From IMG/VR virus record IMGVR_UViG_3300045918_000213, positions 1-27,133 of that record: a DNA stretch of 27,133 nucleotides; one strand, 5' to 3'. Below the pieces are notes generated by a model. It searched no databases. It was not told where the DNA came from and worked only from the letters and a program-made list of their open reading frames with translations. The DNA comes from a virus. A program made the position numbers and the translations under genes. Positions 4,686 to 14,982 of this stretch are shown piece after piece. Numbering within the stretch: the stretch's first letter is position 1; each line of letters begins with the position of its first letter.

Positions 4686-5003
4686 TCTTGGTGTCCTGTT
4701 GGTGGCGGTCGATAAGACCAACCGGTAACTGGGGCTGCATGCTTTGGAATCCACGGTGCTGGCTCTCCACCACCGCGCATTCCAAAACATTCGCTCTCAA
4801 CCACTGCGCGCTCCTGGCCCCTCCGGGGGCCACAACGAAAAAACCCCCGCGCCGCCCTCCGTTGTTGGGAGGACGACACGGGGGCTTCCGGCTTTGTCTG
4901 TGGGCCGGCACCGCGGACTACATTTGGTATAGCGCCTGTCCTCGCGCTGGTCTCGGGCTGGTGGTGGGTGTGCGTCCACACCCACCATTGCCGCCTGAGA
5001 TGG
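4686..5003 (-). promoter_or_regulatory. Structured leader before DNA polymerase (four hairpins)
   Basis: No gene is seen in these 318 bp. In the leftward direction it carries: an 11-bp hairpin at 4962-4987 (TGGTGGGTGTG with its complement, CGTC loop), an intrinsic terminator (listed separately), a 6-bp GGCCCC hairpin at 4816-4831, and a large stem at 4743-4786 with outer arms TTTGGAAT/ATTCCAAA and inner CGGTG/CACCG. It probably contains the promoter that restarts transcription for the polymerase operon after the terminator, and it is also a candidate replication origin by position. I see no clear -35/-10 pair. Confidence 0.5.
4838..4884 (-). terminator. Rho-independent terminator (leftward)
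   Basis: On the minus strand a two-part GC-rich stem (CCCCCG 4844-4849 with CGGGGG 4879-4884, and CCCTCC 4855-4860 with GGGAGG 4867-4872, six-base loop) is followed directly by six T residues (A-run at 4838-4843 on the plus strand). This is the best intrinsic terminator of the left arm. It ends transcription after the 245-residue gene, so the polymerase operon needs read-through, antitermination or its own promoter. Confidence 0.85.
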
Positions 5004-5741
5004 TTACGCGGCGATGCCGAACTCGTCGCCGATGAGCCGCGACGTCACGTCGTTGCTGTGCTTCGGGGCCTCGACCTCGTTCTTGTGCTGCGCCGCATAC
5101 GCCTCGGTGAGGCGCTTCGCAGCGTAGTCGCAGACCTTCTGCGTCTGACGGTCCCAGTCGAGGTTGATGGTCATGCCGGACTCGATGAGGGCGAGCTTGT
5201 GGATCGCGGCCTCACGGAACGCCTGACGCGCACGCGACAGGTTGCCGTTGATCCGCTCGTCCTCGGCCGTGTCCTGACCCTGTCCGGCGAGGTACTGCGC
5301 GCGATCGAGCGCATCCTCGATCTGCTTCGTGGCGTTGCAGGCGTTCCACGTCAGCGCGCTGTCGAACAGCGTGCGCATCGCGTACAGGAAGTTGTTGTTC
5401 GTGTACTTGTCGCCGGCGGCGTACGTCTCGGCCAGCCCCTTGAACTGGAGGCCCAGCTCCTTCGCCAGCGCCTTGTCGGACTCCTCGAGCTTCGAGACCG
5501 CGGTGCGCAGGCGCTGCGGGGCATCGACGCTGATCTTCCTCACGAATGAGGTGAGCGCCGAGTAGCGCCCGTTCTGCATCGTGAAGCCGTTGATGTACCA
5601 CGCCTTGGGAGCGGCGGGCGCATCCGAGTTCGGCTCCGGGTTCTCCGTGTTCGTGCGCGCGATGACGCCCTCGGGGGTGCCGCTGAGGCCCGGCTCGGTG
5701 GTCGGGGTGAAGCCATCGGCGAGAACGGTGTTGTTCTGCAT
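5004..5741 (-). CDS. Hypothetical early protein (245 aa), unrecognised
   Basis: The protein starts MQNNTVLADGF, with AGGA about ten bases upstream. Residues 1-55 are low-complexity, rich in P, T, N and S, and probably disordered. Residues about 55-215 are mixed but mostly helical (VRKISVDAPQRLRTAVSKLE, then AALDRAQYL-like helices), with a YTNNNFLY segment in the middle. The last 30 residues are polar. I do not recognise a family. Length, position ahead of DNA polymerase, and its own terminator suggest a well-expressed early protein, perhaps a DNA-binding or replication accessory factor; that is inference only. An upstream in-frame extension lacks a ribosome-binding site and overlaps the next gene. 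Confidence 0.75.
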   Translation of the reverse strand: MQNNTVLADGFTPTTEPGLSGTPEGVIARTNTENPEPNSDAPAAPKAWYINGFTMQNGRYSALTSFVRKISVDAPQRLRTAVSKLEESDKALAKELGLQFKGLAETYAAGDKYTNNNFLYAMRTLFDSALTWNACNATKQIEDALDRAQYLAGQGQDTAEDERINGNLSRARQAFREAAIHKLALIESGMTINLDWDRQTQKVCDYAAKRLTEAYAAQHKNEVEAPKHSNDVTSRLIGDEFGIAA

Positions 5742-5790
5742 GATCTTGATTCCTATGAGATGAGGTTGTTGAGAACAGTGATCGACAAAA

Positions 5791-5982
5791 TCAAACGACG
5801 TTGAAAGGATCGCGGGACTCGAAAGTGATGCGGCTGTAGAGCTTGTCGGCCGCCTCTTCGTCGTCCTCGGCGTCACACAGCAGCACGAGTGGGTCGTCAT
5901 CGTTGCTGGTGAGGAGGGCCATCACCCTCGGGTTCGAGAGGCTTACGGCATTGAGGCTCGCCATCATGGATTTGCTGGACAT
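5791..5982 (-). CDS. Small acidic early protein (63 aa), unknown
   Basis: The frame starts MSSKSMMASL with CAGGAG seven bases upstream. The protein has a polar N-terminus, a hydrophobic middle (VMALLTS, LVLLCDA) and a strongly acidic DAEDDEEAAD patch, ending in a short SRITFESRD strand-like tail. No known domain. It follows one of the three repeated intercistronic hairpins (6017-6044), so its message may be a processed or attenuated segment of the operon. An internal ATG (MASLNAV) is a weaker alternative start. Confidence 0.65.
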   Translation of the reverse strand: MSSKSMMASLNAVSLSNPRVMALLTSNDDDPLVLLCDAEDDEEAADKLYSRITFESRDPFNVV

Positions 5983-6016
5983 TCGGTATCTCCTGCGCCC
6001 TGAATGGGCACGGCGA

Positions 6017-6044
6017 AACCCCGAGCCTTTAGTGGCCCGGGGTT
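6017..6044 (-). repeat. Intercistronic hairpin repeat, copy A
   Basis: AACCCCG and CGGGGTT arms with an inner GCC/GGC step and a TTTAGT loop, 7 nt after the stop of the 86-residue gene. In leftward reading the distal arm ends CTCGGGGTTTC, followed by CGTGCC. The same arm and tail recur at 6902-6938 and 7469-7495. Only three Ts follow the stem, so termination would be weak; RNase III processing or attenuation is possible. Confidence 0.7.
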
Positions 6045-6050
6045 CGTCGA

Positions 6051-6311
6051 TTACTGAGGCGCTTTCGGGGCGCGACGGTGGGGCTTGAAGCGCCAGCCGG
6101 CCTCCCACTTCTCTTCGGCTTCATGCAGCATGCAGCGCAGTGAGGCGGCGAGTTCTGCGTGGGTGATGAGCCCGGTAGCGCACTGGTCTAGGATGCCGAG
6201 GCGGTTGGCGTGCTCGCGCACGATCTGTTCGATCTCCCACGCCTTGATCTCGGCCGCGGTCGGCAGGGGTGTTTCGAGGCCGGTGATCTCGTCGATGTAG
6301 GTGCCGGTCAT
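6051..6311 (-). CDS. Small early protein (86 aa), unknown
   Basis: The protein starts MTGTYIDEITG with CTGGAGA eight bases upstream. Composition suggests three helices (residues about 18-40, 50-70), with acidic/aromatic WEIEQIV and EEKWEAGW segments and a basic C-terminus (KPHRRAPKAPQ). There is no recognised domain. A short basic tail on a helical protein is compatible with nucleic-acid or host-protein binding, but this is only a guess. It begins two bases before the stop region of the upstream 68-residue gene and is followed by repeat hairpin A. Confidence 0.65.
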   Translation of the reverse strand: MTGTYIDEITGLETPLPTAAEIKAWEIEQIVREHANRLGILDQCATGLITHAELAASLRCMLHEAEEKWEAGWRFKPHRRAPKAPQ

Positions 6312-6312
6312 G

Positions 6313-6519
6313 TCAGGTCTCCAGTGCGGTGCGCTTGCCGAGGCGCATGTGGTGGATCGCGCGGTGATTCAGCAGGCGTGCGGTGTTCACGCACATGCGG
6401 GTGAGGCCTTCCGAAGGCGTGTAGCTCGGGCTACGCGAGTCGCGGAGGGCGTGAATGGTTTCGACGGCGCAGTGGCGCAGCTTGCCGGCTTCGTAGAAGC
6501 ACTGGTCGCGGAATTGCAC
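6313..6519 (-). CDS. Small early protein (68 aa, GTG start), unknown
   Basis: The GTG at 6519 is used because TAGGAGA stands six bases upstream, and the TAG of that Shine-Dalgarno is itself the stop codon of the preceding gene, which favours re-initiation. The peptide is basic, with HALRDSRSPSYTPSEG in the middle and several H, R and C residues (DQCFYEAGKLRHC). The RxxSPSYTPSEGL and TARLLNHRAIHHMR segments look like a compact helical nucleic-acid binder, but no family is recognised. Confidence 0.6.
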   Translation of the reverse strand: MQFRDQCFYEAGKLRHCAVETIHALRDSRSPSYTPSEGLTRMCVNTARLLNHRAIHHMRLGKRTALET

Positions 6520-6528
6520 GGTCTTCTC

Positions 6529-6753
6529 CTAGGCCCAGAGGACGCGATCAGCGTCGATACGCTGACGCAGGTTGAGTTCGCGCATTGCGGCCGCCAGCGT
6601 CTGCTGATGGCTAAGACGCGAGGCGAGTTCCATCGTGTAGCAGTCGCCGTCCATGACGACTGTCTCGACGGGGCGGCTGTAGCCCTCCGTTTTCTCTCTG
6701 AGGACGGCGATGAATTCGCGCAAGTCGTTGGTGCTGATGCAGTCGAAGGACAT
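6529..6753 (-). CDS. Small early protein (74 aa), unknown
   Basis: The frame starts MSFDCISTND with GAGGAG six bases upstream; the start lies 11 bases inside the end of the upstream 33-residue gene. A mixed helix/strand pattern is visible: TNDLREFIAVLREK (helix), VETVVMDGDCYTME (strand pair), then SHQQTLAAAMRELNLRQRI (helix). No motif is diagnostic. Its TAG stop doubles as part of the next gene's Shine-Dalgarno, so this gene and the next are probably translated together. Confidence 0.65.
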   Translation of the reverse strand: MSFDCISTNDLREFIAVLREKTEGYSRPVETVVMDGDCYTMELASRLSHQQTLAAAMRELNLRQRIDADRVLWA

Positions 6754-6763
6754 GGCACTCTCC

Positions 6764-6865
6764 TCAAGGCGCGGCGAGGATGACGAGGCCCACGATGGCG
6801 ATGGCGCCCCAGCAGGCAAACGGAACGAGGTCGTACGCGATACGATCGGTCGAAGGGAAGTTCAT
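6764..6865 (-). CDS. 33-residue single-pass membrane protein
   Basis: A short frame starts MNFPSTDRIAYDLV with TGGAGA seven bases upstream. Residues 14-31 are one hydrophobic transmembrane helix (FACWGAIAIVGLVILA), ending two residues later, so the N-terminus is polar and the C-terminus essentially the membrane anchor. It follows repeat hairpin B, which sits between it and the upstream gene. Tiny membrane proteins in early operons often target host envelope functions or exclude other phages, but no homology supports that here. Confidence 0.6.
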   Translation of the reverse strand: MNFPSTDRIAYDLVPFACWGAIAIVGLVILAAP

Positions 6866-6901
6866 GATGATTCTCCAGATGCCGGTAGTGGCATGGAGAA
6901 A

Positions 6902-6938
6902 CCCCGAGAAGGCTGGCGACTGCCAGCCTTTCCCGGGG
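6902..6938 (-). repeat. Intercistronic hairpin repeat, copy B
   Basis: The strongest of three related hairpins: inner arms AAGGCTGGC/GCCAGCCTT (9 bp, GACT loop) on outer arms CCCCG/CGGGG. It starts six bases after the upstream stop and ends about 35 bases before the next start. Read leftward it ends CTCGGGGTTTC and continues to TGCCACTACC, words shared with copy C. Confidence 0.75.
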
Positions 6939-6944
6939 ATCAAT

Positions 6945-7235
6945 TCACTCGGCGAGTGGGTCGGCCTGTTCGCGCGCGTACGCGCTATCGGCGTGGAAGG
7001 GCTCGACGTAGTCGTAGACGCCGTCCTTGATGGCGGAGTTGTCAGGCCAGACCACGACGCTGTCGTCGAAGCGGCGCTGGACCTCGGCGTCAAGGACATC
7101 GAGTGCGCAGTCGATGATCTTGTGGTTTAGCGTGAGGCAGTGGGCGTCGCACAGCTCGTTCAGGTGGAGGCTGATTATGCTGAGGAAGTAGTGGGCGCGA
7201 TCGAGGGTCGTCTGGTCGATGGTGCTGAGACTCAT
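6945..7235 (-). CDS. Small early protein (96 aa), unknown
   Basis: The start MSLSTIDQTT has AGGAGA five to six bases upstream, where the TAG of the preceding gene merges with the Shine-Dalgarno (TAGGAG). The protein is helical in its first two thirds (HYFLSIISLHLNELCDAHCL, KIIDCALDVLDAEVQRRF), then acidic with aromatic residues (YDYVEPFHAD). Three cysteines and four histidines are spread out without a clean zinc motif. No family is recognised. Repeat hairpin B follows its stop. Confidence 0.65.
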   Translation of the reverse strand: MSLSTIDQTTLDRAHYFLSIISLHLNELCDAHCLTLNHKIIDCALDVLDAEVQRRFDDSVVVWPDNSAIKDGVYDYVEPFHADSAYAREQADPLAE

Positions 7236-7244
7236 GGTCTTCTC

Positions 7245-7433
7245 CTAGTAGAGGCAGTCGGCGGTGTTGTAGGGGTCGCAGCCGAACGTGTAGCCCGGCA
7301 TGACAGGGACGACGATGGCGTCGAGGCCAACGAGGCGCATCTCGTTGGCGGCTTCGGCGGCCATGTCGAGAGGGCGAGGATCGAGGTGAACGATGACGCC
7401 GGTGGCGATGAACTTGACGCGTACGCTGAACAT
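7245..7433 (-). CDS. Small early protein (62 aa), unknown
   Basis: The frame starts MFSVRVKFIATGVIVHLDP, with TGGAGA seven bases upstream. A beta-strand-like N-terminus is followed by a helix (MAAEAANEMRLVGLDA), then a strand and a loop carrying two cysteines (YTFGCDPYNTADC). The beta-alpha-beta pattern suggests a compact folded domain, but nothing assigns it. It lies directly behind repeat hairpin C and its TAG stop becomes part of the next gene's ribosome-binding site. Confidence 0.65.
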   Translation of the reverse strand: MFSVRVKFIATGVIVHLDPRPLDMAAEAANEMRLVGLDAIVVPVMPGYTFGCDPYNTADCLY

Positions 7434-7468
7434 GGCAGTCTCCAGAATGGTTGGTAGTGGCACGACGA

Positions 7469-7495
7469 AACCCCGAGCCACTGAGGCCCGGGGTT
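7469..7495 (-). repeat. Intercistronic hairpin repeat, copy C
   Basis: Arms AACCCCG/CGGGGTT with inner GCC/GGC and a five-base loop, differing from copy A almost only in the loop. It begins seven bases past the TAA of the 74-residue gene. Leftward reading gives GGCTCGGGGTTTCGTCGTGCC, followed by ACTACC as in copy B. Confidence 0.7.
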
Positions 7496-7501
7496 CGGCG
7501 G

Positions 7502-7726
7502 TTAGATTGCGAGCACTTCGTCGAGGGTCATGGGCGGGAAGCGGCGGTCCCACTCGGCGAAGAGGGCGTCGAGGTGCGCATGCTCGGCTTCGAGCGTCAT
7601 GATGTCGCTACCGTCGAGATCGTCGAGTGCCGCAGCGCCGTTCTGTGAGATGAAGGCGGCGGTGTCCTGGATGTCGACGAGGAGATCTTCGACGCTGAGG
7701 CGCGCGAGGCTGTTGAGGTCGGTCAT
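7502..7726 (-). CDS. First gene of the leftward operon (74 aa), acidic, unknown
   Basis: The start MTDLNSLARLS has CTAGGAGC six to seven bases upstream, the same leader seen before two other genes of this operon although no gene ends in that TAG. The protein is acidic and helical (SVEDLLVDIQDTAAF, TLEAEHAHLDALFAEWDRRF), with a short hydrophobic end (LDEVLAI). It is the promoter-proximal gene of the leftward block, so it should be made first and most strongly. First-expressed small acidic phage proteins are often host-takeover or DNA-mimic proteins; for this one that is only a possibility. Confidence 0.65.
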   Translation of the reverse strand: MTDLNSLARLSVEDLLVDIQDTAAFISQNGAAALDDLDGSDIMTLEAEHAHLDALFAEWDRRFPPMTLDEVLAI

Positions 7727-7783
7727 GGTCTTGCTCCTAGGGATGTGGTGATACGTCTAACCCACCGCGCCACTGCGATCCCA

Positions 7784-7988
7784 GTGACTAAGCAGGCTAA
7801 TTACCCAACGCACCCTCGAGCGCAGCTACGAAGTAGCTGCGTGACCGCGCTACGAGGTAGCCAAGCCACTAAGTCACCCAGTGGCGCGAGTTCTTCACAA
7901 CGATGAATTTGGAAGAAGGTCCCTTGGCGACTACGAGTTCCGAATTCCGGTTCTTCGGGAGCCGAGGTTTGCGGACGCGGTGACTTAG
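7784..7988. repeat. GTGACT(A/T)AG words, cluster 1
   Basis: Exact copies lie at 7784-7792 (plus), 7869-7877 (minus, inside CCACTAAGTCACCCAGTGG) and 7980-7988 (plus), with a partial GACTTAG near 8105. The same word recurs inside the large terminase gene at 9958-9966 and 9993-10001. Spacing is irregular and both orientations occur, as for protein-binding sites rather than a tandem repeat. Confidence 0.55.
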
Positions 7989-8055
7989 CAGCTTTGCCAC
8001 GTATGACCAATGAGGTCCCGGATAGCGGATTGTTGAAAAAATTTTTAGTTTTCAT
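7801..8055 (-). CDS. Doubtful 84-residue frame in the control region
   Basis: A leftward frame starting MKTKNFFNNPLSG is open for 84 residues across the divergent region. For it: an AT-rich, lysine/asparagine-rich start as often seen at real gene starts, and correct orientation. Against it: a poor Shine-Dalgarno at long spacing, a C-terminal part that simply translates the two palindromes, and no recognisable domain. The palindromes look more like operators, so I favour non-coding DNA, but a small regulatory protein cannot be excluded. Confidence 0.25.
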   Translation of the reverse strand: MKTKNFFNNPLSGTSLVIRGKAAKSPRPQTSAPEEPEFGTRSRQGTFFQIHRCEELAPLGDLVAWLPRSAVTQLLRSCARGCVG

Positions 8056-8131
8056 ATGCGCGTTTGCTCGCCTATCCGGCGTAAGGCGTTGAACGAGCAG
8101 CCCCGACTTAGTGCAGCTAAGGTGGCCGCCC

Positions 8132-8554
8132 ATGAAAACCAAGCAATGCCCGTCGTGCAAACGGACGCTTGACCGCCAGAGAGACTTCTACCGGATCGAG
8201 ACACCGAAGATCACGCGCACGTCGTCCTACTGCCGACGCTGCTCGTCGGACAAGGTCATGGAGCGCTGGCGCGCCCGCCGACTGCGGAACATGGAGAAGG
8301 TCGTGGCGCACCTCCAGTCGAACGCCTGCGTCGACTGCGGCGAGGAGGACTGGCGCGTTCTGGAGTTCGACCACCGCGAACCATGCCTCAAGGTCGACGC
8401 GATCACGAATCTTGTGAACCGCGTCCCATGGAACCGAGTGAAGGCCGAGATGGAGAAGTGCGAGATCAGGTGCGCGAACTGCCACCGACGCAAGACCCAG
8501 GTCGACTTCGGCCACTACGCCTACCTGAACCTACCGACAGGAGTCCTGCACTGA
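8132..8554 (+). CDS. HNH endonuclease
   Basis: 140-residue protein beginning MKTKQCPSCK. A zinc ribbon uses C6, C9, C34 and C37. The HNH part follows: CVDCG (C66, C69), EFDHRE with D80-H81, and CEIRCANCHRRKT with C114, N116, C117 and H118, closing the beta-beta-alpha-metal fold. Phages often carry HNH proteins beside the terminase genes, where some are required for terminal cleavage of packaged DNA; others are homing nucleases. As the first rightward gene, two small genes ahead of terS, a packaging role is plausible. Shine-Dalgarno is weak (AAGGTGG). A GTG 21 bases upstream is less likely as the start. Confidence 0.85.
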   Translation: MKTKQCPSCKRTLDRQRDFYRIETPKITRTSSYCRRCSSDKVMERWRARRLRNMEKVVAHLQSNACVDCGEEDWRVLEFDHREPCLKVDAITNLVNRVPWNRVKAEMEKCEIRCANCHRRKTQVDFGHYAYLNLPTGVLH

Positions 8555-9484: not shown

Positions 9485-11504
9485 AGCCCACCGGAAGCAA
9501 TTCCACGACCCCTGCCGCCGCTGCATCAAGGCGGAGGCCGGGAAGGAAGATCCTCGGCATCTGTGCGATCCGTGCTCTGCCGCCGCGAACTCCGCGTACG
9601 AGATCCTAAACCACCTGCGCGAACACCGCGACGAGATGCCGGACTGGATCGAGCGAGTGTCGGAGGCCATCGGCGCGCAGCCTCATAGGGCCTCCTCCGC
9701 CCTCGGCAAACTCATCGAGGACGTCCGCGACCGCGGGGTGATCCGCAACACGGTGCTGCGCCGCCTTGGAATCAAGGCCCCAAAAGAGGGTACGCCCGCC
9801 CAGCGCATCAAGCTCACCGCGCCGAAGGAGCGGCTGCACGTACCGAAGAACGCGCTGAAGGATGGCCAGCCGCTCCTCGACCGCGCCGTGCGCATGATCG
9901 AGAGCGGAATCGTCCCGGCCCGACCCATCGAGCGCCAAGTCACTGAGTCACTTAGCCCTAAGTCACAGCCCACCCAGCAGCAAAGTGACGCAGTGACTAA
10001 GGAACTGGCCGAGCGGGAGCTGGCCCGGCGCAAGCTGCTGCGGTTCGTCCTGCGCATGTACCCGGAGTACAAGGTCGGCTGGTTCAACATTGACCTGTGC
10101 GATCGGCTGGAGAAGTTCCTCCAGGACGTGATCGACCGCAAGAGCCCGCGACTGATGCTCAGCGTGCCGCCGCGCCACGGGAAGAGCTTCATCGTCTCCG
10201 AGAAGTTCCCGGCCTGGGCGCTGGGGCGCAACCCATCGCTGGAGTTCATCTCGACGTCGTACGGTCAGTCCCTGGCGAACGACTTCTCGTACAAGGTCCA
10301 GAACCTGCTGCAGATGCCGGAGTACCGCTCGGTGTTCCCGGACTGCGAGCTGGAGGAGGGAAGGTCGTCCATCGAGTCGTGGCGCACCACGAAGGGCGGC
10401 CAGTACCACGCCGTCGGCGCGGGCGGGCCGCTGACCGGCCGCGGCGCCCACGTCCTGAACATCGACGACCCGATCAAGAACCGCGAGGAGGCCGACAGCG
10501 CGAACATCCGCCAGTCGCTCTACAACTGGTACACGTCCACGGCGTACACCCGCCTGATGCCGGGCGGCGGGGTGCTGATCACCCAGACCCGCTGGCACGA
10601 CGATGACCTGATGGGCCGGCTGGAGGCGGAGTTCAAGGTAGCGCTGCGCCAGCTCGCCGACACCGGCGTGTTCCCGGAGGACGCTGACCGCTGGGAGATC
10701 ATCTCGTACCCGGCGATCGCCACCCAGGACGAGGAGCACCGGAAGCGCGGCGATGCGCTGCACCCAGGCTGGATGCCGCTGGGCGAGTTGCTGAAGCGCA
10801 AGCGCGCGCTCGGCCCGCGCGACTGGTCGGCGCTGTACCAGCAGAACCCGGTGCCGGACGAGGGCGGGTACTTCAAGCCCGGGTGGATCCGGTACGCCGA
10901 CACGATGCCGAAAACCGACACGCTGGCGATATACGCGGCGGTCGACTTGGCGGTGTCGAAGAAGGAGACGGCGGACTTCACGGCGATCGTCGTGGTCGGC
11001 GTGGACCAGCTCAACAACATCCATGTGCTCGACCTGCGCCATGGGCGCTTTGACTCGATGGAGATCATCGACCAGCTCTTCGACGTCTGGAAGGTCTGGC
11101 GGCCCCGCCTGATCGGTATCGAGGAGGGTGCCATCGCGTCGTCCATCGGACCGTTCCTGAACAAGCGCATCCAGGAGGAGCAGATCTGGGAGATGGCGAT
11201 CGAGCCGCTGAAGATCCGCCGAATGGATAAGGAGGCTCGCGCCCGGTCGATCCAGGGTCGCATGAGCCAGGGGAAGGTGTTCTTCCCGAAGAATGCGGAG
11301 TGGACGCCGACTCTGGTCAACGAGCTGCTGCGGTTCGGGCAGACGGCGCACGACGACTGCGTGGACGCGCTGGCATGGATCGGACAGATGCTCGAGACCA
11401 TCGTGGCGCCCGAGGCGCCGACCCGGCAGAAGACCGAGAGCTGGCGCGACAAGCTGCACAAGTTCGCCGGCGAGCAGGAGAGCGGGTCGTGGATGGCGGC
11501 TTAG
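9477..11504 (+). CDS. terL: Terminase large subunit with N-terminal Zn/helical extension
   Basis: 675-residue packaging motor. ATPase: Walker A SVPPRHGKS (229-237), Walker B HVLNIDD with D330/D331, coupling motif ITQTRW (368-373). RNase H-like nuclease: D490 in AAVDLA, E549 in IGIEEG, D630 in DDCVDAL. TerL enzymes of this type are about 480-550 residues; here about 185 residues precede the ATPase. This extension has a CxxC pair (C13/C16, C30/C33) consistent with a zinc site, a helical segment resembling an HTH (about 60-100), and a Ser/Gln/Pro linker (about 155-172) whose DNA carries the GTGACTTAG-type repeats. The start overlaps terS by 8 bp. The motor cuts and pumps DNA into the prohead through the portal. 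Confidence 0.95.
   Translation: MARAHRKQFHDPCRRCIKAEAGKEDPRHLCDPCSAAANSAYEILNHLREHRDEMPDWIERVSEAIGAQPHRASSALGKLIEDVRDRGVIRNTVLRRLGIKAPKEGTPAQRIKLTAPKERLHVPKNALKDGQPLLDRAVRMIESGIVPARPIERQVTESLSPKSQPTQQQSDAVTKELAERELARRKLLRFVLRMYPEYKVGWFNIDLCDRLEKFLQDVIDRKSPRLMLSVPPRHGKSFIVSEKFPAWALGRNPSLEFISTSYGQSLANDFSYKVQNLLQMPEYRSVFPDCELEEGRSSIESWRTTKGGQYHAVGAGGPLTGRGAHVLNIDDPIKNREEADSANIRQSLYNWYTSTAYTRLMPGGGVLITQTRWHDDDLMGRLEAEFKVALRQLADTGVFPEDADRWEIISYPAIATQDEEHRKRGDALHPGWMPLGELLKRKRALGPRDWSALYQQNPVPDEGGYFKPGWIRYADTMPKTDTLAIYAAVDLAVSKKETADFTAIVVVGVDQLNNIHVLDLRHGRFDSMEIIDQLFDVWKVWRPRLIGIEEGAIASSIGPFLNKRIQEEQIWEMAIEPLKIRRMDKEARARSIQGRMSQGKVFFPKNAEWTPTLVNELLRFGQTAHDDCVDALAWIGQMLETIVAPEAPTRQKTESWRDKLHKFAGEQESGSWMAA
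9938..10001. repeat. GTGACT(A/T)AG words, cluster 2 (inside terL)
   Basis: Within the TerL linker coding region lie CTAAGTCAC at 9958-9966 and GTGACTAAG at 9993-10001, plus partial AGTCAC copies at 9938 and 9946 and GTGAC at 9985. They match the words in the divergent region 2 kb upstream. The encoded peptide is low-complexity, so the DNA may be under its own constraint, for example as a packaging site. Confidence 0.5.
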
Positions 11505-14927: not shown

Positions 14928-14935
14928 TCGCGTCG

Positions 14936-14963
14936 CCCGTGCGGAGCACACACTCCGCACGGG
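14936..14963 (+). terminator. Perfect 11-bp hairpin after the scaffold gene
   Basis: CCCGTGCGGAG and its exact complement enclose a CACACA loop nine bases after the scaffold stop. No T-run follows, so it may be a weak or factor-dependent terminator, or an RNA-processing or mRNA-stabilising structure separating scaffold from capsid message. Confidence 0.5.
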
Positions 14964-14982
14964 CTGCAGCCCCGCGCTGAAT

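Follow-up and report, generated by a model that had tools for sequence, protein, structure and literature searches.

Three copies of a GC-rich RNA hairpin stand between the small genes of a leftward early operon in the IMG/VR virus record IMGVR_UViG_3300045918_000213, whose entire length of 27,133 bases was analyzed here (the window). Each hairpin is followed by a tail and by the Shine-Dalgarno (SD) sequence of the next gene, and this hairpin-SD arrangement recurs, in repeated versions peculiar to each phage, at equivalent junctions of at least three related uncultured phages, so that at least four phages, including that of the window, possess it. With moderate confidence, we interpret the hairpins as terminator-derived, read-through punctuation that would divide the early mRNA into separately translated units.

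All three hairpins (at junctions A, B, and C; Table 1) are GC-rich stem-loops on the minus strand with stems of 13-16 bp. Their arms span 6044-6017 (A), 6938-6902 (B), and 7495-7469 (C). Each lies 6 nucleotides (nt) from the preceding stop codon (6053-6051, 6947-6945, and 7504-7502 at A, B, and C, respectively) and 34, 36, and 35 nt from the next ATG (at 5982, 6865, and 7433). With this stop and start spacing checked on the minus strand, the coordinates and the three-fold repetition between early genes given in a first-pass annotation of the window proved right. The z-scores of the minimum free energy of the junctions are -4.2 (A), -5.9 (B), and -2.0 (C). No Rfam family scored above its gathering threshold in window positions 4700-8200 or in the three related loci described below (L013, L183, and L244); the best sub-threshold match in the same part of the window was a weak one to F6, located on the terminator downstream of the operon.

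All three junctions contain the 11-mer CTCGGGGTTTC unchanged, and it is absent from the rest of the window on both strands, even with one mismatch allowed. It is as long as the longest string common to the three junctions (11 nt), a length that never exceeded 7 in 2000 dinucleotide shuffles of the junctions. Shuffling the junctions is the fitting test here, as the whole GC-rich window contains 67 kinds of 11-mer seen three times (9-28 kinds per shuffle in 20 shuffles of the window). In the stem, CCCCGGG...CTCGGGG is kept in all three copies with an identical G-U pair; the inner stem consists of two pairs in A and C, with unlike loops, and is different and longer in B. Beyond the stem, B and C have TGCCACTACC and TCTGGAGA in common, and A and C have TTTCG(T/C)CGTGCC. 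The repetition thus spans the 3' arm, the tail, and, in part, the SD context, which bears out the earlier remark that it extends beyond the need of a generic terminator. The (C/A)TGCC that had been reported in leftward reading is correct in its TGCC, and the preceding base is instead G or A (GTGCC, ATGCC, and GTGCC).

Repeated versions of the module in related phages

The window comes from a P22-portal/KPP25-like podovirus, of which it is a fragment. Its rightward genes include those for a large terminase, a P22-type portal, and a Phage_capsid_3 capsid protein with 57 per cent identity to that of KPP25, and its leftward genes include one for a family A DNA polymerase. The nearest named relatives, Pseudomonas phages KPP25/phiR18, Acidovorax phage AP1, Aeromonas phage phiA008, and the uncultured podovirus MW202615, have genomes of 55-65 kb, and the record therefore probably represents about half a genome or less.

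We collected IMG/VR loci from alignments of the portal (80 loci), the polymerase (80), and the capsid protein (80 rows, 78 of them new loci) and scanned 170 loci (window included), and then the 78 further ones, for hairpins with a common 3' arm and tail. Review of the 170 loci covered groups of at least three hairpins, with pairs outside it; some loci are overlapping parts of one contig, and many stop short of the early region, so that the survey gives no estimate of frequency. Repeated junction hairpins were found only in the window, L013/L091, L183, and L244. L013 and L091 are one phage (99.9 per cent identical), and L179 is the same contig. The other hairpin groups listed were, as far as inspected, chance matches in GC-rich coding sequence or protein repeats.

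In L013, six leftward junctions consist of a stop codon, a hairpin of 12-22 bp, an SD, and a start codon. Four of the six tails have a GGTTGTCC(T/A)(T/A)TT-type sequence running to GTG(T/G)TGT, and those of copies 1 and 5 diverge. L183 has five junctions with (C/T)CTTTT(C/T)G...TGTGTAT tails containing 4-5 T (the fifth, at 936-917, was read from the sequence), and L244 has two junctions with TCTGCTTTTGTGTT. Some early junctions of KPP25 also have hairpins, which are single and unlike; two of the three scored have U-tracts.

The structure of the L013 stem is maintained by covariation: across five copies of a 14-pair stem (copy 5, of another length, was omitted), all 70 of 70 cells are paired and three pairs are changed on both sides, with a covariation score equaled in none of 500 shuffles, even if five related rows are few and copies from the same genome do not count as independent lines. 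Copying has also clearly taken place within genomes. Copies 2 and 6 of L013 are 85 per cent identical over 68 columns, and leaders are more similar within a phage (24.0; 29 pairs) than between phages (14.3; 91 pairs). When all early proteins from the four phages were compared (30 entries), a relationship emerged for a single pair (L183_2/L244_x; 32.5 per cent identity, E-value 3e-8), and the hairpin module is present at its L183 member and missing from L244_x. Likeness of leaders within a phage, set against unrelated downstream proteins, means that it is the leader that has been copied and not the gene.

Homology of the tails between phages is suggestive only. Leaders of the window and L013 without their SD exceeded shuffles in similarity (maximum, 6 of 1000; sum, 3 of 1000). 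With SD and T-run removed, the mean over copies was reached by 1 of 1000 shuffles for window/L013 and by none of 1000 each for L013/L183, L013/L244, and L183/L244; such means overstate significance because copies are not independent, and the best single pair in the same four comparisons was unremarkable (38, 113, 178, and 253 of 1000). For the window against L183 and L244, the tails gave 134 and 97 per 1000 by the mean and 56 and 335 per 1000 by the best pair. A search with a tail profile recovered neither the window copies nor convincing new phages.

The first-pass annotation had named absence of the shared tail from close relatives as evidence against its proposal. The exact tail was indeed not found in the collections searched, and the relatives have a repeated hairpin and tail of their own at equivalent junctions. 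Matches to CTCGGGGTTTCKYCRTGCC occurred once each in three IMG/VR contigs, two of which (L004 and L005) have no hairpin there and one of which (L006) has a lone terminator-like hairpin, and once each in 11 genome contigs across several phyla, which is about the level that we expect by chance. The longer tail of B and C had no match in the sequence search. Neither blastn of the early region nor tblastn of P0009, P0003, and P0007 retrieved anything from 50,697 phage records, and P0009 and P0010 as single-protein queries found no IMG/VR relatives.

Two further features of the related loci were recorded. The hairpin loops of L013 are UUAC, UAAC, or UCAC in five of six copies, possibly a protein-binding loop or just a stable tetraloop; the T4 polymerase operator likewise has a UAAC loop, about 40 nt before the start (PMC3014915). 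At about 1570-1450 on the minus strand of L244, three imperfect repeats of CTGAACCGGAGGGCT(C/G)G precede the gene whose L183 relative has the module.

Probable read-through, predicted burial of Shine-Dalgarno sequences, and competing explanations

The window copies have the stable GC-rich stem-loop of a canonical terminator followed by a U-run of only three consecutive bases. In L013, five of six copies pass a terminator scan that requires at least 5 T in the 8 positions right after the stem (10 sites on both strands against 2.3 expected), and copy 1, which has the same stem as copy 2, has TTTTCTTTTT. The family therefore includes credible terminators, of which the window copies look like weakened members. 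A scan for sigma-70-like consensus found no promoter match in the junctions of the window or L013 and no -35/-10 elements within the inverted repeats; it is a weak test, with phage-specific promoters outside its reach. Given the three-base U-run and the lack of promoter-like sequence in the junctions, RNA polymerase most likely reads through them for the most part.

A second structure involves the SD itself. At junction B, a second hairpin, UUCUCCAUGCC/GGCAUCUGGAGAA, pairs the SD (leader z-score -4.7; SD paired 0.99); at A, a second short hairpin, GCCC/GGGC, reaches part of it (z-score -2.4; paired 0.58); and at C, the SD is paired 0.70. When the leaders were folded alone, the SD was almost fully buried (paired 0.96-1.00) in 4 of 16, namely window B, L183_4, L183_5, and L244_2, with leader z-scores of -4.7, -5.0, -1.9, and -3.8, respectively. 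The anti-SD strand is the U-rich tail in the latter three and a UUCUCC tail in B. As controls we used 127 leaders from KPP25, AP1, and phiA008 and from six hairpin-free window genes. Junction leaders are more structured than these (mean z-score -1.48, n = 16, versus -0.06, n = 127; Mann-Whitney P-value = 0.001), z-scores below -2 being found in 5 of 16 junction leaders and 5 of 127 controls, and their SD pairing is slightly higher (0.65, n = 16, versus 0.51 in the 96 controls with a recognizable SD; P-value = 0.037).

We therefore picture an intergenic RNA module that descends from a terminator and of which the early operon has received three copies. Each consists of a GC-rich stem-loop just past the stop codon, followed by a short run of U, a pyrimidine/A-C-rich tail, and the SD of the next gene. 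The hairpins would mark 3' ends through partial termination or trimming and would insulate translation by letting ribosomes load separately on either side. The tail may also fold onto the SD in some copies, clearly so in B and partly in A, and hold down translation of the next gene.

Several observations weigh against this picture. None of the three window copies was flagged for a U-tract by the scan that flagged the 4889-4839 site (at 4887-4841), and by a terminator score, they reached -2.9, 17.0, and 13.0 against 50.7 for that true terminator. As evidence of read-through, the promoter scan is weak: the head of the operon is also without a match, and over 20 kb there was 1 match against 2.6 expected. 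The terminator at 4889-4839 stands between gene 9 and the DNA polymerase gene, which runs in the same direction, so that this gene needs its own start or antitermination and the phage must restart or antiterminate somewhere. Masking of the SD is not general, since the leader z-score is above 0 in 4 of 16 leaders (window C, L13_1, L13_2, and L244_1), and within the window operon, the unpaired values of the SD behind hairpins (0.01-0.40) overlap those of the other six genes (0.02-0.50). Finally, the SD comparison was devised after the pattern had been seen in the folds.

The chief rival, also raised by the first-pass annotation, is RNase III-type processing as in T7 early mRNA, in which the transcript would be cut at each hairpin into stable units, sometimes freeing a masked ribosome-binding site (RBS); we consider it possible but doubtful. 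The likeness in geometry was upheld by a control in which the same hairpin scan, applied to T7, found stems before genes 0.3, 0.5, 1, and 1.3 (four of six junctions), which we take to be the RNase III sites, and none before 0.7 and 1.1. These T7 stems are a related family and end about 23-36 nt before the start. An irregular helix of about 20 bp, with upper and lower stems and an internal loop, is present in L013 copy 3, whose 22 bp stem is interrupted by a 2x2 internal loop, and is approximated by copy 4 with its second, lower stem, and the masked SDs of B, L183_4, L183_5, and L244_2 would fit cut-to-translate control. The likeness does not extend to the T7 lower stem and internal loop in the window, however: beneath its 13-16 bp stems, any lower stem has no more than 2-4 bp, and most copies in the relatives are also without one. 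Moreover, the U-runs behind the L013 and L183 stems are unnecessary for that enzyme.

A more far-reaching and distinctly tentative proposal, rather unlikely as it stands, is that KPP25/P22-portal podophages have a repeated two-hairpin junction module. Hairpin 1 would punctuate the early transcript and its U-rich tail would be the anti-SD strand of hairpin 2, so that read-through RNA would stay untranslated until hairpin 2 was opened or cut; copying would keep the module alike in each genome while genes change, making it a standard socket for new early genes.

Mobile terminator-plus-promoter cassettes of the T4-type PeSL or cluster K ESAS-like kind, in which transcription would end at the hairpin and begin anew from a promoter within the tail, seem improbable to us. 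They would account for repeated genome-specific versions among small early genes and for sequence conserved beyond the U-run, and the ESAS of Adephagia hold putative SigA-like promoters within inverted repeats (PMC11373665). Against them stand the negative promoter scan of the window and L013 junctions, weak as that test is, and the position of the conserved tail, where a -10 box would place the transcription start at or beside the SD. A single-subunit RNA polymerase was considered as a source of phage promoters and rejected: a search limited to T7-type polymerases, which detected that of T7 itself as a positive control, found no such gene in 10 records (four complete genomes of relatives and six IMG/VR records, window included, that may be fragments).

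It is more improbable still that the repeats act at the DNA level, binding a phage regulator or serving recombination, with the RNA fold as a by-product. Similar inverted repeats are proposed regulator sites in Adephagia (PMC11373665), and the copying within genomes would agree with such a role, but the stems retain G-U pairs, L013 has one-sided changes (for example, C-G to U-G), and the elements have a fixed place between stop codon and SD and a single orientation, on the transcribed strand of the early operon. The duplicated gene cassettes of the first-pass annotation, in which hairpin, RBS, and orphan gene would be copied together, are barely tenable and already contradicted by the sequence: close likeness among the copies of one phage (L013 copies 2 and 6) would agree with them, but the genes behind the window hairpins are mutually unrelated and, apart from the L183_2/L244_x pair, so are the downstream proteins within and between phages, and the repeated unit is the hairpin plus leader and SD without the gene.

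Phages keep gaining small early genes, each of which needs its own expression level from one transcript. A repeated, maintained, gene-independent leader module would show how orphan genes plug into an early operon, and repeated stop-hairpin-SD junctions would offer a sequence handle for early operons in uncultured phages. With such a module, one could also ask directly if the tail of a terminator serves as an anti-SD sequence too.

Early operon and neighboring features

The leftward region 7726-5004 contains nine small genes (Table 1), of which only gene 9 has a PHROG match with an E-value below 0.01, to a family without known function. The hairpin junctions are 68-79 nt long, and four other internal junctions (9, 10, 9, and 1 nt) are hairpin-free; since these are so short, their genes are probably translationally coupled. 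The module is present in three of the four gaps longer than 20 nt, the exception being the gap before gene 9, and with its three hairpins the operon would fall into four units of translation. A pure leader role would be favored by a hairpin ahead of the operon's first gene. Such a hairpin was significant in L013 only (z-score -3.64) and not in the window, L183, or L244, and that role was dropped.

Table 1. Junctions, genes, and terminator of the leftward early region of the window.
Feature	Position	Strand	Description
Junction A	5983-6050	-	Between genes 6051-6311 and 5791-5982; hairpin 6045-6016; tail TTTCGCCGTGCCC
Junction B	6866-6944	-	Between genes 6945-7235 and 6764-6865; hairpin 6938-6902; longer inner stem; tail TTTCTCCATGCCACTACC
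Junction C	7434-7501	-	Between genes 7502-7726 and 7245-7433; hairpin 7499-7465; tail TTTCGTCGTGCCACTACCAACC; SD TGGAGA
Early gene 1	7502-7726	-	74 amino acids (aa), orphan; leader without significant hairpin (z-score -0.63)
Early gene 2	7245-7433	-	62 aa; behind hairpin C
Early gene 3	6945-7235	-	96 aa; separated from gene 2 by 9 nt; tblastn against phages gave no match
Early gene 4	6764-6865	-	33 aa; hydrophobic by eye; behind hairpin B
Early gene 5	6529-6753	-	74 aa; 10 nt from gene 4
Early gene 6	6313-6519	-	68 aa; GTG start; 9 nt from gene 5
Early gene 7	6051-6311	-	86 aa; separated from gene 6 by 1 nt; tblastn against phages gave no match
Early gene 8	5791-5982	-	63 aa; behind hairpin A
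Early gene 9	5004-5741	-	245 aa; preceding 49-nt gap without hairpin (z-score +0.73)
Strong U-tract terminator	4889-4839	-	Stem of 22 bp with TTTTTT; follows gene 9; served as the reference for a real terminator within this genome

Ahead of the early operon, at 7784-7988 in the window and 3015-3200 in L013, GTNACTNAG repeats occur in both orientations and form a candidate origin or operator array; counts over the whole source are 8 against 1.7 expected for the window and 10 against 1.9 for L013. The two phages also resemble each other there in a stretch reading GTCACC(G/C)CGTCC. Five of the GTNACTNAG sites of the window are located at 9939-10001 inside the terminase open reading frame (ORF), ahead of its conserved part. 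Beside the repeat region, a rightward ORF at 8111-8554 has a cysteine/histidine pattern that appears HNH endonuclease-like by eye only, and an ORF at 1843-2229 of L010 is similar to it, also by eye. A perfect 13-bp inverted repeat without a U-tract lies at 14935-14964, between two rightward structural genes.

Comparison with known systems

Like the T7 early sites, the window hairpins are one family placed between early genes, tens of nucleotides before starts, with inner stems that vary and pairing that is kept. The T7 sites have an upper and a lower stem around an internal loop, whereas the window hairpins are single stems, and their cleavage would be assumed by analogy. Similarity to the T7 tails was seen for L013 by the mean (12 of 1000), with none by the best pair.

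T4-type PeSL are mobile regulatory intergenic stem-loop cassettes between small early genes and carry an early promoter. The window module shares with them the repetition of stem-loops between small early genes; an early promoter was not detected here by the sigma-70-like scan.

In ordinary intrinsic terminators, as here, a GC-rich stem follows soon after the stop codon, and the copies of L013 and L183 also have the U-run. Unlike such terminators, the window copies have sequence in common beyond their three U, and the genes downstream appear to need read-through.

The SAS/ESAS of cluster K mycobacteriophages combine a translation-start element with an inverted repeat immediately before it and recur at many small non-structural genes (PMC3203893, PMC12699233, PMC11373665), with a consensus that varies by subcluster (PMC3203893), as it does between phages here. 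ESAS differ in having putative SigA promoters (PMC11373665) and in being tied to the 13-bp SAS, GGGATAGGAGCCC, for which the window has 3 sites at 3 mismatches against 7.3 by chance, none of them in junctions A-C. In the module described here, the repeat instead adjoins the upstream stop codon, with U-runs behind it in the relatives.

In T4, SD-burying leaders block translation of read-through transcripts of genes e, soc, 49, and I-TevI (PMC3014915, PMC2988022). The SDs predicted to be buried in window B, L183_4, L183_5, and L244_2 resemble them. The T4 hairpins each serve one late gene and have a late promoter close to the 5' arm, whereas those described here recur among early genes and our scan detected no promoter with them. 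The repeated hairpin leaders of the window and its relatives are thus akin to the known T7 R sites, cluster K ESAS, and T4 RBS hairpins.

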